This document shows, one piece after another, positions 2,315-22,922 of a stretch of DNA of 23,405 bases. The notes below the pieces were generated by a model. That model did not search any database and was not told the DNA's origin. It saw only the letters and a program-made list of their open reading frames with translations. Numbering within the stretch: the first letter of the stretch is position 1; every line of letters starts with the position of its first letter. The translations under genes were made by a program, and so were the position numbers. Origin of the DNA: a virus; IMG/VR virus record IMGVR_UViG_3300043467_001754, positions 1-23,405 of that record; one strand, 5' to 3'.

Positions 2315-3040
2315 TTAATACCAAACTGGCTTTGAGCCTTGTGTTATAATTTTTTTGATCTTTGAACCCGGGGCTGCATTTATTGAATAGGTGGTGCATC
2401 TGTTGTCCCAAACTATTATATCACCAGTACTCCAAGTAGTCGAAAAAACATTTTGCTCATCCTGAAAAAACTCAAGCAAGTAAGCTAAATATTTTTGCCA
2501 AACATCATTGTCTTTACCTATAGTAGAAGGGCCGCTATAAAAAACTGATTCCCTATTTGTCTCTGGATGGATGCGCAATGCCGGGTGCTTATATTCTTGT
2601 TGAGACTGTCTTTGATGTAAGTCTCTTGGGTTTTTAATATTCCAACCAGTAATATTGTGTTTAGTTATAAATTCAACAATTTTTGGATCCAACAAATTTC
2701 TTACTTTTTCTAAATCAACCCAACTAATTAAATTAGATTCCCCTACAGATTCAACAATCTCCATCATACATATATCTGCTACCTTAGTGTCCCAGCACAG
2801 ATCATTTTGCCATCTTGCGTAATAGCCATATTCTCCAGGGCCAGCATTTTGTAGCGGGGCAAAGAAAGAGTAGTCGTAATCCTCGTCAACCAAAATTGAA
2901 GATTCACCTGGAGCAAATGCTTCAATAAGGCTTTCTGTATCTTCAGGACAAAAATCTTTGAATACCAACACTTTATGGTCTAAAAGTAGACAGGGATCGT
3001 CAATTATTCCATTTTCAATTATTTTACCAAAATTAGACAT
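2315..3040 (-). CDS. TauD/TfdA-fold protein lacking the iron-binding histidines (241 aa)
   Basis: The fold is recognisable from P-A-L-R-I-H-P-E-T-N-R (about residues 153-163, matching H-P-x-x-R-x-H-P-E-T-G-R) and from I-V-W-D-N-R near the C-terminus (209-214), both typical of TauD-type dioxygenases. Where the family has W-H-x-D the sequence is W77-Q78-N79-D80. Where the distal histidine follows W-D-N-R-x-x-x, it is Y218. Both histidine ligands are thus gone while the aspartate stays, and the usual arginine-rich tail is lysine-rich. The frame is intact, so this may be a pseudoenzyme with a binding or regulatory role, or a variant metal site. An extended -10 element ends six bases before its ATG. 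A neighbour of the intact oxygenase at 1720. Confidence 0.75.
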   Translation of the reverse strand: MSNFGKIIENGIIDDPCLLLDHKVLVFKDFCPEDTESLIEAFAPGESSILVDEDYDYSFFAPLQNAGPGEYGYYARWQNDLCWDTKVADICMMEIVESVGESNLISWVDLEKVRNLLDPKIVEFITKHNITGWNIKNPRDLHQRQSQQEYKHPALRIHPETNRESVFYSGPSTIGKDNDVWQKYLAYLLEFFQDEQNVFSTTWSTGDIIVWDNRCTTYSINAAPGSKIKKIITQGSKPVWY

Positions 3041-3046
3041 ACGACA

Positions 3047-3055
3047 ATTATAGCA
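3047..3055 (-). promoter_or_regulatory. Extended -10 promoter giving a predicted leaderless transcript
   Basis: On the - strand this reads TGCTATAAT, a TGn extended -10 joined to a consensus hexamer (TATAAT at 3052-3047). Six bases separate it from the ATG of the TauD-like gene (3040-3038), so the expected transcription start falls on or next to the A of the start codon. No ribosome-binding sequence or good -35 box is present, and the upstream 3056-3095 stretch is very AT-rich. The same nine bases occur before the gene at 19765. Confidence 0.6.
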
Positions 3056-15654: not shown

Positions 15655-16206
15655 CTACGTTCTTAAGGGCCAGACAGGCATCTTTGTAATATCTATTTCA
15701 CTTAAAATTGGATTAGCACTATCTCTTGCTGAGAGGATAGGATCTTGCACAGACCATTCTGCACCGATCATTTTATCGTCCCAAGCAACTCCAAGTTCGT
15801 CAGCTTGATTGTAATAATTGTCTACCAAATAAGTTAAGATCATATCTGTAGTAGCAGAAAAACCATGGGCAACTCCTGGTGGAATATACAATCCAAGATT
15901 ATTATCTCCTGTTAAATCTACTGAATATATCTCACCTTCCGTTGGTGACCCTATTCTCATGTCATAAATAACTGATCTTGCTTTGCCAAAAGGAACATAC
16001 CAATAGTCAGACTGATGCAGATGGTAATGAAATCCAGCTAGGGCACCTGCAGATTTAGATGATCTATTTGTTTGTATTACTTCTCTTGCTCCCGGTATCC
16101 AATCTCTTCTATAAGATTCGGTGAAGAAACCTCTATCATCACCAAATTTTTGTGGCTCTACTAAGAAAGCACCTTTAATATTTGTCTCTTGTACATTTGC
16201 GCCCAT
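15655..16206 (-). CDS. rfbC: dTDP-4-dehydrorhamnose 3,5-epimerase-like cupin (RmlC family, 183 aa)
   Basis: Family marks are F-G-D-D-R-G-F-F-T-E-S-Y (near residue 22), Q-T-N-R-S-S-K-S, G-x-H-Y-H (H at about 75), D-M-R-I-G-S-P-T-x-G, Y-I-P-P-G-V-A-H-G-F and Y-N-Q-A-D-E-x-G-V-A-W-D-D. The canonical L-R-G-L-H-Y-Q is L-A-G-F-H-Y-H-L-H-Q here, so this is a divergent branch and may act on another dTDP- or NDP-4-keto sugar. Length is usual for the family. Its ATG shares a base with the GT2 stop (TAATG). With the RmlD-like protein it suggests a deoxysugar route, though RmlA and RmlB are not in the window. Confidence 0.85.
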   Translation of the reverse strand: MGANVQETNIKGAFLVEPQKFGDDRGFFTESYRRDWIPGAREVIQTNRSSKSAGALAGFHYHLHQSDYWYVPFGKARSVIYDMRIGSPTEGEIYSVDLTGDNNLGLYIPPGVAHGFSATTDMILTYLVDNYYNQADELGVAWDDKMIGAEWSVQDPILSARDSANPILSEIDITKMPVWPLRT

Positions 16207-17066
16207 TAGATTATTCTTCCTCTGTAAAAATTAGTCCATCTAGGGACTTTGATAAGATCAACTTCTCTACCCAAAGCAGCAATGTATACTGTTTCTGGAT
16301 TTTCATTTAGTCCCTTAAGTTCTGGCTGTGACTGGTACCACTCTTCTAGGTAGATGGCACTCCAGTCTTCAAATCTAGTTACATTAGGACTATGGTATGT
16401 GACATTCGGGCCAACGTAATATTTATTCCACTTGTTAACCCAATTAACAACACCTTCGTTAATTCTATTTTTAGAAGCGGGATCGTTTGAACTAGTCGAA
16501 TCATGCCCAACATGGATGGATGGATCAGCTATCATCTTCCAGCCATCAAGTCTAAGACGAGTTTGATAATCTACTTCTTCTTGGTGGCCAATCTTAGTAT
16601 CAAATCCACCAATTCGCAAGTACGCTTGTTTCTTAAGCATCCAGCAAAAGCCAACTCCCCATAGTATTTCTGTGTACTTAGGTCTTGGAATTTGATAAGC
16701 CCCACCGTTAGGAAAGGCCATTGCAACTTCTAAGTTTGTAGCAAGATAGCCTGCAAGTTTTTCGTCCCATCCATGAGTTGCTACATAGGCATCGTTGTCT
16801 AAGTAGCCAACATAATCTGTTTCTGCCCACTCTAATATTTGATTGACTGCTCCAACGTATCCACTATTGCTATCTAAGAATCTTGGAATAATTCTTGAAT
16901 CTTCACTAACGTGTCTTTCAATTACTTCTCTAACACCTGGATCCGTGGATGCATTATCGATAACTAGAAATCGCCAATCAGAAGTAGAGCATTGTCTCAT
17001 GTTAGTGAGCATCGTGTTTAACTTGTCAGGATTGTTGTAGCTAGCAGTGCCCATATCTATTCTCAT
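16206..17066 (-). CDS. Family 2 glycosyltransferase (286 aa)
   Basis: A GT-A fold enzyme: N-terminal strand, then F-L-V-I-D-N-A-S-T-D-P-G (nucleotide-binding, about residues 33-44), a D-S-N-x-G-Y-V-G-A-V-N segment, the metal-binding L-D-N-D (D90/D92), and G-G-F-D with E-E-V-D-Y (acceptor side and catalytic base region). The start at 17066 overlaps the preceding stop as ATGA; the open frame goes five codons further upstream but this coupled ATG is preferred. It should transfer a sugar from a nucleotide donor to a surface glycan or protein in the cytoplasm. Donor unknown, perhaps the product of the RmlC/RmlD pair. Confidence 0.88.
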   Translation of the reverse strand: MRIDMGTASYNNPDKLNTMLTNMRQCSTSDWRFLVIDNASTDPGVREVIERHVSEDSRIIPRFLDSNSGYVGAVNQILEWAETDYVGYLDNDAYVATHGWDEKLAGYLATNLEVAMAFPNGGAYQIPRPKYTEILWGVGFCWMLKKQAYLRIGGFDTKIGHQEEVDYQTRLRLDGWKMIADPSIHVGHDSTSSNDPASKNRINEGVVNWVNKWNKYYVGPNVTYHSPNVTRFEDWSAIYLEEWYQSQPELKGLNENPETVYIAALGREVDLIKVPRWTNFYRGRII

Positions 17067-17818
17067 GGCTTTACCCACCACTGTCCATTTTCATGTCGGA
17101 CAAATCCTATTTGCACTAACATTGTATCCCATTCCCATTCGTATTTATTATTGATAGAAAGGTGCATCGGGATAGAATTCCCGTGCTCCGCATCCCCTAT
17201 GCCAAATGCATTATGAGGGATAAACACACCGTTTTTCTTTAAGCAGTTAAAAATAGCCAATGCCCATTCATCTACGTTTACAACGTGCTCTAAAAAATCT
17301 AAAGCAACAACGGCATCAAACTCGTTTATGCCAATTTTTGGGGCAAAGGTATCGGTGAATATGATTTTTATACCTAGATCAGGACGCTTGCTAAATCTAT
17401 GCTGAGCAAAGCCGGCTGTCTTGCTGTCCTCTAGATCATGGTATGTGGTATTTAATCCTTCTTCGGCCATTCTCAAGCTCAGCGTACCGATACCGTCACC
17501 AATACTCAGGACATCTTTCTTGCCAGCATGCGCTAGTCCCAAACTAATACCCTCACACATGCCCTTGTAGTTAAAGCCATCATCTAAGTGATATGAAGAA
17601 AGCTCCCAAATATAAGTATCTGTATTTCTATACCAATTAAGAAGAGAGTCTGGATCATCTACATTGGTATTGGTGGAAGTAAAATCTTCTGCGACCATGT
17701 GGTGATTAGCATGAAAGCCTAAAGATAAACGCTCTTTAACCTTATCTAATCTAATGCCCAAATATTCTGATATGTCTTTTGCTTGTGTCTCTAAGTTCAC
17801 TTTTTTATTTTTTCCCAT
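17063..17818 (-). CDS. SAM-dependent methyltransferase (251 aa)
   Basis: A helical N-terminal part (about 100 residues) precedes a clear SAM domain: V-L-S-I-G-D-G-I-G-T-L-S-L (motif I), T-T-Y-H-D-L-E (acidic residue after strand 2), D-A-V-V-A-L-D-F-L-E-H-V (motif II) and L-K-K-N-G-V-F (motif III). Two in-frame ATGs exist at 17830 and 17818; both lie inside the end of the RmlD-like gene. I choose 17818 because a TTTGGA sequence precedes it. It probably methylates a sugar or glycan intermediate of the same block, judging only by neighbours. Confidence 0.78.
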   Translation of the reverse strand: MGKNKKVNLETQAKDISEYLGIRLDKVKERLSLGFHANHHMVAEDFTSTNTNVDDPDSLLNWYRNTDTYIWELSSYHLDDGFNYKGMCEGISLGLAHAGKKDVLSIGDGIGTLSLRMAEEGLNTTYHDLEDSKTAGFAQHRFSKRPDLGIKIIFTDTFAPKIGINEFDAVVALDFLEHVVNVDEWALAIFNCLKKNGVFIPHNAFGIGDAEHGNSIPMHLSINNKYEWEWDTMLVQIGFVRHENGQWWVKP

Positions 17819-18672
17819 TCCAAATAGCATTTTTCTAAACCATACATATAATCAGTCATGTATAAAGATGTTCCATCTTCCCAAGTGGTATCCTTGGGTC
17901 TTGCTACAATGCTGGTGAAATAAGTATAGGATACTGGTTTAATTTCAGTATCTAGTTTACCACGAGAAGCTGTTTTTATATCACTAGCTATAGAAAATCT
18001 TGAACATTTTATTGGATTACCTATGTGAGTAATTTTTTGATCATTTTCTTCAAAATGAAGAGCGGCGTCCCAAAGCAACATAGCAGCGTCGTAAGCAAAA
18101 ACTGGAGAAAAGAATCTATCATCAACTTGAAGCTGCTCTTTTTTTTCCATCATAATTTCTAATGGATTTTTTCTGCCTATATCCTGGAAAGGTCTTACAC
18201 CAATAACAAAAGTTAACCTAACTATTTTTACATTATTATATGAAATAATAAGTTCTTCAGCAAGCGCTTTCTGCCTACCATACCATGTAACAGGATCGGG
18301 TTTGGAGTTGGTATTATAATTAGCATTTTCTCCGCTAAAGATACCCTGCGTACTAACTTGTATTAATTTTTTATTGTTATCACTAACCCATGTAGCTAAA
18401 ATAACAGGCAGGTTTACATTAACATGTACTGAGTCATGTGGGTTTTCCTCTACAACGTCGACTATGTTTTGCCCTGCTAAGTTGATGATTACATCGGGAG
18501 AGTTAGCATTAAGCCAAGCTTGTATATTATCTTCGCCAACGTTTAGTTGCGACCAAACTCCATCCCCTTTTGTTCTCGTGAAAATAGCATCAGCCCATTC
18601 AGGCTTATTGACCATCATGTGCTGGCCTATTATCCCACCAGCTCCTATCACAACAACTTTTTTATTTTGCAT
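17797..18672 (-). CDS. rfbD: dTDP-4-dehydrorhamnose reductase-like SDR enzyme (RmlD family, 291 aa)
   Basis: AAGGA lies eight bases before the ATG. The N-terminal Rossmann motif is V-V-V-I-G-A-G-G-I-I-G (6-16), followed by D-V-I-I-N-L-A-G-Q (60-68), S-T-Q-G-I-F-S-G (107-114) and the catalytic Y131-G-R-Q-K135. The arrangement V-S-T-Q-x-I-F-S-G and P-x-x-x-Y-G-x-x-K is typical of RmlD. It should reduce a 4-keto NDP-sugar with NAD(P)H to give, for example, dTDP-L-rhamnose. It heads the five coupled sugar genes, after a 91-base gap that holds no clear terminator. Confidence 0.85.
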   Translation of the reverse strand: MQNKKVVVIGAGGIIGQHMMVNKPEWADAIFTRTKGDGVWSQLNVGEDNIQAWLNANSPDVIINLAGQNIVDVVEENPHDSVHVNVNLPVILATWVSDNNKKLIQVSTQGIFSGENANYNTNSKPDPVTWYGRQKALAEELIISYNNVKIVRLTFVIGVRPFQDIGRKNPLEIMMEKKEQLQVDDRFFSPVFAYDAAMLLWDAALHFEENDQKITHIGNPIKCSRFSIASDIKTASRGKLDTEIKPVSYTYFTSIVARPKDTTWEDGTSLYMTDYMYGLEKCYLEWEKIKK

Positions 18673-18763: not shown

Positions 18764-19546
18764 CTAATAGCCGGAAAAAGTAGTTGTAATAACACTGCCC
18801 TGTCTTTGGTCAAGAGGTGGCAACTCTTTTCTGACCAAAACTCTTTGCACCCACCTATCGGTGCCATCGTATCTTGCTTGGAAAGGTTTTCTGCCATGAA
18901 TTGTTTTTCTATTATCTATAACCAATAGGTCACCTGTTTTTAATATAATTTCTTTTGTACATTTTTGAATCGCATCTTCAAGTTCTTCGAGAACCAATCT
19001 AGCTAGATAGTCATTCGGCTTCATGACAGTTGCATCGTAGGTAAAAGTTAACATCCCGTCAGCTTCTCCAATTATAGAAGTAGGTATCTCTTGGTCTTCT
19101 TCCCCATTTGTTCTAAAGCTAAGATCTATTCCTGTTGTAAACATTTTTGACTTCAACATATGTTTAGTCTCTACCCTAATATGCTTGAGTATGTCAGACA
19201 AATTAGCGTACGTGGTTACTGCCTGAGGATCGCCCCTAAGGCAAAACAAAACTACATAGTCTGGCTTGTAAGGATGAAATGCAGTCTCTGTGTGAAGAGC
19301 TAGTTCAGTTTTAGATGAAGTAGATATCTGTTGATACTCAGTCTTATGGACTGGAACTATGTTCTGTATTATTTGACCGTTTTGTTCCTGAATATAACCA
19401 ATCGGATGGCCATATTTTTTAACATGATCAAGAAGAATCAGAGTGCTTTCTTTGGAGCTGGCGTGCTTGGGGGAACTGATGATCGGTGTAGCTGGAGTTG
19501 GAGGCACATATCCAACATCTAAATTCTCGTAAAGAAAAATTCCCAT
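18764..19546 (-). CDS. Clavaminate-synthase-like 2-oxoglutarate oxygenase (AsnO/VioC type, 260 aa)
   Basis: The iron site is complete and of the HxE type: L-A-L-H85-T-E87-T-A-F-H-P, then V-L-F-C-L-R-G-D (99-106), distal I-D-N-R-x-x-I-H217-G-R, and R235 for 2-oxoglutarate. H-T-E with F-H-P-x-x-P-x-Y and C-L-R-x-D marks the clavaminate synthase / asparagine and arginine hydroxylase branch of the TauD superfamily. Known members hydroxylate free or carrier-bound amino acids, so a free amino acid or a peptide-linked one is the likely substrate. This differs from the TauD-like protein at 2315, which lost its ligands. Soluble enzyme. It follows the 69-residue gene by nine bases. Confidence 0.83.
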   Translation of the reverse strand: MGIFLYENLDVGYVPPTPATPIISSPKHASSKESTLILLDHVKKYGHPIGYIQEQNGQIIQNIVPVHKTEYQQISTSSKTELALHTETAFHPYKPDYVVLFCLRGDPQAVTTYANLSDILKHIRVETKHMLKSKMFTTGIDLSFRTNGEEDQEIPTSIIGEADGMLTFTYDATVMKPNDYLARLVLEELEDAIQKCTKEIILKTGDLLVIDNRKTIHGRKPFQARYDGTDRWVQRVLVRKELPPLDQRQGSVITTTFSGY

Positions 19547-22244: not shown

Positions 22245-22922
22245 TTAAAAAGTTTTAACTAAATTTTCGATAGCTATATTTCTTGGCATTGTGTTAGAAA
22301 TCAGTGTAGTTTTTTTAAACCATTTTAAAACGATATTATATCTAGTACCGCTTTTTACCTGATTTACAGCATGTAAATACATGGAATTTGTTGGAAACGT
22401 AACAACTTCTCCGGCCTTAGGGCTTATTGTTAAATCGTATTCTGGGAATACAATCTCCCCACCTTCATAGTCATCATTCAAATAAACTAAAGAAGAATAA
22501 TCAGATAAAAATCTAGGTATGTGCGTATGCCAATGAGGGTCTGAACCATTTATTTCTAAGGCCAATTCAGAATTATTATACTCACTGTCAGAATGCATAG
22601 TTTGAAAATCTCCGATAGACCAAACCCTACCCCATATTTGGGGATCACAAACCAATCTTTGCCCATACTTATATTCAACCCTATCTTTAACTTGATTAAT
22701 TAAGTTAAACAAAACTGGTTTAAGATCATCAGAAATAAAAAAATATGGCACTGCTTTCACAGTAACAGGATCGCCGTTTGGATAATAATCACAACCTAAA
22801 CCGTTTGGCATAAGATCGTCCCAGTCATCAGGACACTCCATGTGTCCCAATAAACTGCGAACGTCTTCGGTTGATAATACATTATTGTTAACAACAATGT
22901 TGTCTACAGAACCAATACCCAT
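22245..22922 (-). CDS. 2-oxoglutarate/Fe(II) oxygenase, prolyl 4-hydroxylase-like (225 aa)
   Basis: The iron site reads M-H110-S-D112, then distal Y-L-H184-A, then S-G-T-R194-Y-N for 2-oxoglutarate. The signature V-Y-L-N-D-D-Y-E-G-G-E-I-V-F-P (about 146-160) and P-K-A-G-E-V-V-T-F-P follow in P4H order. The protein is related to the one at 1720, which has the same layout but shorter N-terminus. Substrate unknown. It starts five bases after the stop of the 32-residue gene, with a weak AGAAG site, so coupling is likely. Sits inside the cluster of tiny basic proteins. Confidence 0.87.
   Translation of the reverse strand: MGIGSVDNIVVNNNVLSTEDVRSLLGHMECPDDWDDLMPNGLGCDYYPNGDPVTVKAVPYFFISDDLKPVLFNLINQVKDRVEYKYGQRLVCDPQIWGRVWSIGDFQTMHSDSEYNNSELALEINGSDPHWHTHIPRFLSDYSSLVYLNDDYEGGEIVFPEYDLTISPKAGEVVTFPTNSMYLHAVNQVKSGTRYNIVLKWFKKTTLISNTMPRNIAIENLVKTF

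Follow-up and report, generated by a model that had tools for sequence, protein, structure and literature searches.

Glutamine and tyrosine at the iron-ligand histidine positions of a TauD-fold protein in a phage clade, a candidate pseudo-oxygenase

The window analysed here is a 23,405-nt stretch of viral DNA (IMG/VR record IMGVR_UViG_3300043467_001754, positions 1 to 23,405). It encodes P0001, a TauD-fold protein in which Gln and Tyr replace the two histidines of the usual H-x-D...H triad. The P0001 gene, its neighbours, and the residues discussed below are listed in Table 1.

Table 1. Positions of the genes, the promoter-like element, and the P0001 codons considered in this study
Feature	Coordinates	Strand	Remarks
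P0001, TauD-fold protein with Q-x-D...Y replacing H-x-D...H	2315..3040	minus	241 aa; Pfam, AlphaFold2, 19 viral loci
2OG-Fe(II) oxygenase, PF13640	1720..2313	minus	downstream; starts 1 nt past the P0001 stop
Large putative secreted protein upstream of P0001	3257..6916	minus	sequence features
Second TauD-fold protein, clavaminate-synthase/AsnO-like	18764..19546	minus	260 aa; intact H-x-E...H
Extended -10 element TGCTATAAT	3047..3055	minus	ends 6 nt from the P0001 ATG; conserved position
Q78 codon CAA	2807..2809	minus	Fe ligand H99 position of TauD; alignment
D80 codon GAT	2801..2803	minus	carboxylate ligand D101 position of TauD; invariant in every aligned homologue
C82 codon TGC	2795..2797	minus	T103 position of TauD; does not vary within the Q/Y clade; the canonical sister clade has Ser
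Y218 codon TAT	2387..2389	minus	Fe ligand H255 position of TauD; alignment
S226	2363..2365	minus	R266 position of TauD, counted back from K230; Lys227 adjacent

P0001 matched the TauD family of Pfam (PF02668) over residues 18-216, with an E-value of 5.8e-19 and a score of 69.5 bits against a cut-off of 27; the PHROGs search returned no family for it. The AlphaFold2 model of P0001, built from 48 aligned sequences, reached a pLDDT of 84 and a pTM of 0.86, and the model built from 5 sequences had a pLDDT of 37. The mean pLDDT was above 90 for residues 81-90 and 211-220, and values below 50 were seen at residues 70-73, immediately ahead of the Q78 loop. The solved structures closest to the model in Foldseek were AtsK, PlaO1, and TauD, with E-values of about 1e-14 (reaching down to 2e-14) and TM values of 0.65-0.72. 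When aligned with TauD (1gy9) by VIA-align, the model superposed over 224 residues with a Z of 23.1 and 3.0 A. Both the family match and this overlay, which had been proposed as a check, agree with the TauD fold claimed for this frame in the first-pass annotation. The fold and the family of P0001 are already known ones.

The iron-ligand positions were located by profile alignment of P0001 with E. coli TauD (1gqw), in which the residue equivalences are sequence-based and both motifs are ungapped. TauD W98-H99-T100-D101 aligned with W77-Q78-N79-D80 of P0001, within R76-W-Q78-N-D80, and TauD W248-D-N-R-x-x-x-H255 aligned with W211-D-N-R-C-T-T-Y218. The Asp alone was thus left of the 2-His-1-carboxylate triad. 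The replacement of both histidines, as originally read from the letters, was upheld by this alignment, and the codons at positions 78 and 218 each lie one base from a His codon. Residue 148, which had been named as a possible substitute His ligand, is a Gln; the histidines nearby are H142, H152, and H158. Canonical TauDs also have H158 without exception and H152 nearly so, and H142 is unconserved. None of the three takes over the ligand role in the alignment.

The Q, D, and Y residues were found in 19/19 related viral loci of the clade, which share 36-100% identity and come from separate IMG/VR contigs. They were retained by the relatives at 89-100% identity, by L015 (52%), and by the group of L013, L014, and L016-L020 (36-39%). 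The check on conservation of Q78 and Y218 among homologues therefore came out in favour of the two substitutions. The nearest other relatives, 25 viral loci, were canonical (H-x-D...H), and no mixed His/Q-Y form occurred among these 25 H...H and 19 Q...Y loci, a count from a search led by a canonical sequence with patterns that did not cover the ligands. When the genomes of 84,980 species were scanned with patterns of the Q/Y clade, the first scan gave zero relatives and the second gave 21 cellular TauDs (L021-L041), all with W-H-x-D and, where complete, with the distal His. No cellular Q/Y member was seen in these scans at their sensitivity. Five further matches to the WDNRCTxY pattern sit in unrelated frames and were set aside as chance. 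Since all clade loci carry Q...Y and the other viral and cellular relatives carry His, the Q/Y state is, on the aligned sequences, a property of the clade.

In the phylogenetic tree, the viral family, consisting of both types and one long-branched viral row, was separated from the other TauDs with a support of 100/99. The Q/Y sequences lay on one side of a branch with a modest support of 77/74, and an alternative grouping of them was not rejected (p-AU 0.196). The Q/Y state likely arose once.

In TauD, 2OG is held by T126 and R266, the latter being the Arg that binds the C5 carboxylate of 2OG in a salt bridge. A short alignment gap falls at the R266 position, so that the P0001 equivalent is either S226 or K227. 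The Arg was absent from this position in all members of the Q/Y clade: S or A was found in the window subclade, counting back from K230, and I or V in the L013 subclade, where the alignment has no gap. A Lys neighbours the position in most Q/Y members, and the Arg is kept in the canonical viral clade. The T126 position is occupied by I105 in the window subclade, by M in L015, and by T in the L013 subclade. Ahead of it, Gly102-Gly103 is invariant in the canonical clade and lost in the Q/Y clade. The first-pass annotation had noticed neither the loss of the 2OG Arg throughout the clade nor that of the Thr in the window subclade.

The residues invariant solely within the Q/Y clade were Q78, C82, D84, V113, Q182, and Y218. 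Over 20 aligned sequences from both viral clades, 33 positions were invariant, suggesting that the pocket of the family is retained. These shared positions include Y168, G170, T173, K176, D177, D179, and W181, and several of them fall between residues 165 and 181, a segment aligned with the substrate-pocket loop of TauD. The pattern read from the alignment of the Q/Y clade is thus one in which the cofactor residues are gone and the viral family's own pocket is preserved.

The gene adjoining P0001 encodes an intact oxygenase, as had been claimed; its H-x-D...H ligands and its Arg are intact in all copies. The 1-nt junction between the two genes was also found in L009, L011, and L015 and in the canonical L108/L111, and the TauD and oxygenase genes overlap by 4 nt in the canonical L109/L114. 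The oxygenase gene adjoins the P0001-family gene in both Q/Y subclades. The linkage is not universal, because the two-gene order is reversed in the L013 subclade, where about 130 nt separate the genes, and the PF13640 partner is not adjacent to the TauD gene in the canonical L098-L107 subclade. Within the latter, L100 and L107 carry a 58% homologue of the oxygenase 9-10 kb away, and the other members gave weak or no matches. From the gene arrangement, P0001 and the oxygenase are likely co-transcribed. In L108 and L109-L114, at least five 2OG-Fe(II) oxygenase-like matches lie within 10 kb of the canonical TauD gene, and a glycosyltransferase is found near this gene in L108.

The second TauD-fold protein of the window matched AsnO, VioC, and clavaminate synthase with E-values of about 1e-30 to 1e-24. 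Its H-x-E...H motif was present in every checked copy, and the solved enzymes exceed it in length by about 65-100 aa. Most of the related phage records contain a homologue, but none was seen in the 39-kb fragment of L013 or in the L108 group. It adjoins the P0001-family gene in the canonical L098-L107 phages and lies 10-16 kb off in the Q/Y phages. This gene, too diverged to be reached by a P0001-based search, rules out the idea of one TauD gene per phage; the earlier annotation had overlooked both it and the canonical sister clade. Another PF13640-like protein is encoded at 22245-22922 (minus), with the profile match running from about residue 140 onward. A sugar-modification cluster at 15655-18672 (minus) comprises a dTDP-4-dehydrorhamnose 3,5-epimerase, a glycosyltransferase, a methyltransferase, and a nucleotide-sugar epimerase. 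A terminase was detected in only one of the related phage records.

The large protein encoded upstream of P0001 has an apparent signal peptide, a possible beta-helix, a Thr/Pro-rich linker, a Gly/Ser stretch, and a C-terminal hydrophobic segment. A similar large protein, with a poly-Thr linker, is encoded upstream of the P0001-family gene in the other Q/Y subclade (L016, 657-3557). The large protein is possibly an oxygenase substrate or a surface protein.

Directly ahead of P0001, the extended -10 element reported previously was present, and its place is conserved among the relatives. The window subclade and L015 all have TATAAT at the -10 place, where the canonical L099, L100, and L103 have TGGTATACT. 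A region-wide promoter scan gave counts mildly above those of shuffled sequences (11 vs 5.8), and the P0001 element was absent from the resulting list since no -35 match stands alongside it. The case for it as a probable promoter rests on conservation. The conserved position close to the ATG suggests that the P0001 transcript may be leaderless or nearly so. The same element stands 5-6 nt ahead of the start codon in two genes, P0001 and that just upstream of 19765 (minus).

The reading frame was intact in the 19 Q/Y loci, and close pairs within either Q/Y subclade had dN/dS values of 0.08-0.16, similar to the 0.08-0.21 of the canonical clade. These values bear out the full open frame that had been noted. 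Within the clade, synonymous variation was observed at codons 78, 80, 82, and 218; since Q, D, and Y recur with such variation in 19 loci on separate contigs, sequencing error or chance can be dismissed as their source. The single-base distance of each substitution from His would suit a decaying pseudogene or a sequencing artefact; however, this explanation is refuted by the intact frames, the low dN/dS, and the occurrence of the identical two substitutions across 36-100% identity, and we regard it as very improbable. By these sequence comparisons, the clade-wide Q/Y state, the dN/dS, and the intact frames indicate a lineage that is maintained by selection and is not decaying. The catalytic residues are replaced in every member and the protein is under purifying selection, as is characteristic of a pseudoenzyme.

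We propose, with a probability of about one half, that P0001 is a phage pseudo-oxygenase that has abandoned Fe(II)/2OG chemistry and acts by binding, perhaps as a non-catalytic subunit. Its ancestor would have been a canonical phage Fe(II)/2OG oxygenase with the double-stranded beta-helix, in which both His ligands changed to Gln and Tyr and the Arg salt-bridging 2OG was lost, the remaining pocket of the viral family being kept. P0001 would then recognise what its ancestor acted on, or a protein or glycan akin to it, and could assist an active oxygenase as a specificity factor or non-catalytic subunit. The leading candidate for such a partner would be the adjoining PF13640 oxygenase, and the second the clavaminate-synthase-like protein. 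Because the loss affected Fe and 2OG residues alike, we consider it quite probable that the 2OG chemistry is lost; the role as a partner subunit is put forward more tentatively. Counting against a pseudo-oxygenase is the possibility that a metal still binds, since D80 never varies and Gln, Tyr, Cys, and Asp can each serve as ligands. Counting against the loss of 2OG chemistry, Lys227 might replace the 2OG Arg in the window subclade.

One rival is a variant metalloenzyme: Fe or a different metal would be bound by Q78, D80, and Y218, perhaps helped by C82 or D84, and the protein would still catalyse an oxidation or some other reaction, using 2OG or another co-substrate. The strict invariance of these five residues, together with the synonymous change at codons 78, 80, 82, and 218, is in its favour; however, no member has the 2OG Arg, the window subclade has also lost the 2OG Thr, and we know of no active double Q/Y site. 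Precedents for activity with altered ligands exist: the H255Q variant of TauD is reported to keep 81% of its activity (PMC2767507), and AspH variants left with one protein ligand are still active (PMC10947486). In the JmjC protein Epe1, one Fe-ligand His is naturally a Tyr, and Epe1 function depends on this change (PMC7192584). In view of these precedents, the statement in the first-pass annotation that TauD chemistry entails a loss of Fe(II) binding was too strong; such a loss is inferred and not observed. On balance, we hold a variant metalloenzyme to be a serious rival, though a rather improbable one. That the TauD scaffold carries a new metal site, formed by Q-x-D...Y and the invariant Cys two residues past the Asp and performing chemistry without the usual use of 2OG, is in our estimate quite unlikely. 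P0001 might also be a stand-alone ligand-binding protein or a decoy, for an amino acid, a sugar, or a surface polymer, that performs no chemistry, is not a subunit of its neighbour, and may serve host takeover or counter-defence. Such a binder would explain why pocket residues of the viral family are kept without the catalytic residues, and it fits the conserved promoter-like element that P0001 has of its own and the gene order with the oxygenase, which varies between subclades. Nevertheless, the window subclade, L015, and two relatives with canonical ligands all keep 1 nt between the TauD-fold gene and the oxygenase, and no signs of defence or immunity were seen nearby, which makes an independent binder unlikely. 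The immunity or anti-immunity role suggested originally likewise found no supporting evidence, and nothing in the neighbourhood points there.

The reading of P0001 as a pseudo-oxygenase bears on how viral annotations are used. A viral tauD has been counted as an auxiliary metabolic gene for taurine and sulfur use (PMC9469726). A TauD profile match in a phage can mean a protein without the residues for that reaction, and P0001 is now probably a binding or partner protein, not the enzyme that its annotation suggests. A search for a TauD-family pseudoenzyme found no paper in the literature collection that it covered. The full-triad sister clade and the Q/Y clade form a natural pair for studying the route by which an oxygenase turns into a binding protein or acquires an altered metal site, and the same pair lets one ask what use a phage makes of a P0001-type protein.

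Compared with the TauD/TfdA enzymes TauD, AtsK, and PlaO1, P0001 is alike in the full-length fold (Z 22-23) and in the W-x-x-D, WDNR, and R-x-HP motifs. However, its Fe His pair and 2OG Arg are replaced, as is the Thr in the window subclade, and it has 241 aa where these enzymes have about 280 aa. The canonical viral sister clade (L098-L114 and L137) belongs to one viral family with P0001, with 31-38% identity and the 33 common invariants, and in its L108 group the gene for the same oxygenase follows after 1 nt or overlaps; the sister clade differs in keeping H-x-D...H and the 2OG Arg and in having Ser at C82. The clavaminate synthase-like hydroxylases (AsnO, VioC, and OrfP) resemble the second TauD-fold protein of the window, with its intact H-x-E...H, and not P0001. 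Epe1 resembles P0001 in naturally holding a Tyr at an Fe-ligand His position, but it is a JmjC and not a TauD protein, and its Fe-binding His H297 is present and needed, whereas P0001 is without both His. In OGFOD1/Tpa1, binding of substrate or partners has been proposed for the C-terminal beta-helix domain, which has no metal site (PMC4396695). A metal-site-free beta-helix domain is there paired with an active 2OG oxygenase domain, a pairing that gene adjacency suggests for P0001 as well. The two domains of OGFOD1/Tpa1 are fused and eukaryotic, whereas P0001 is encoded by a separate phage gene and its presumably inactive part is TauD-like.
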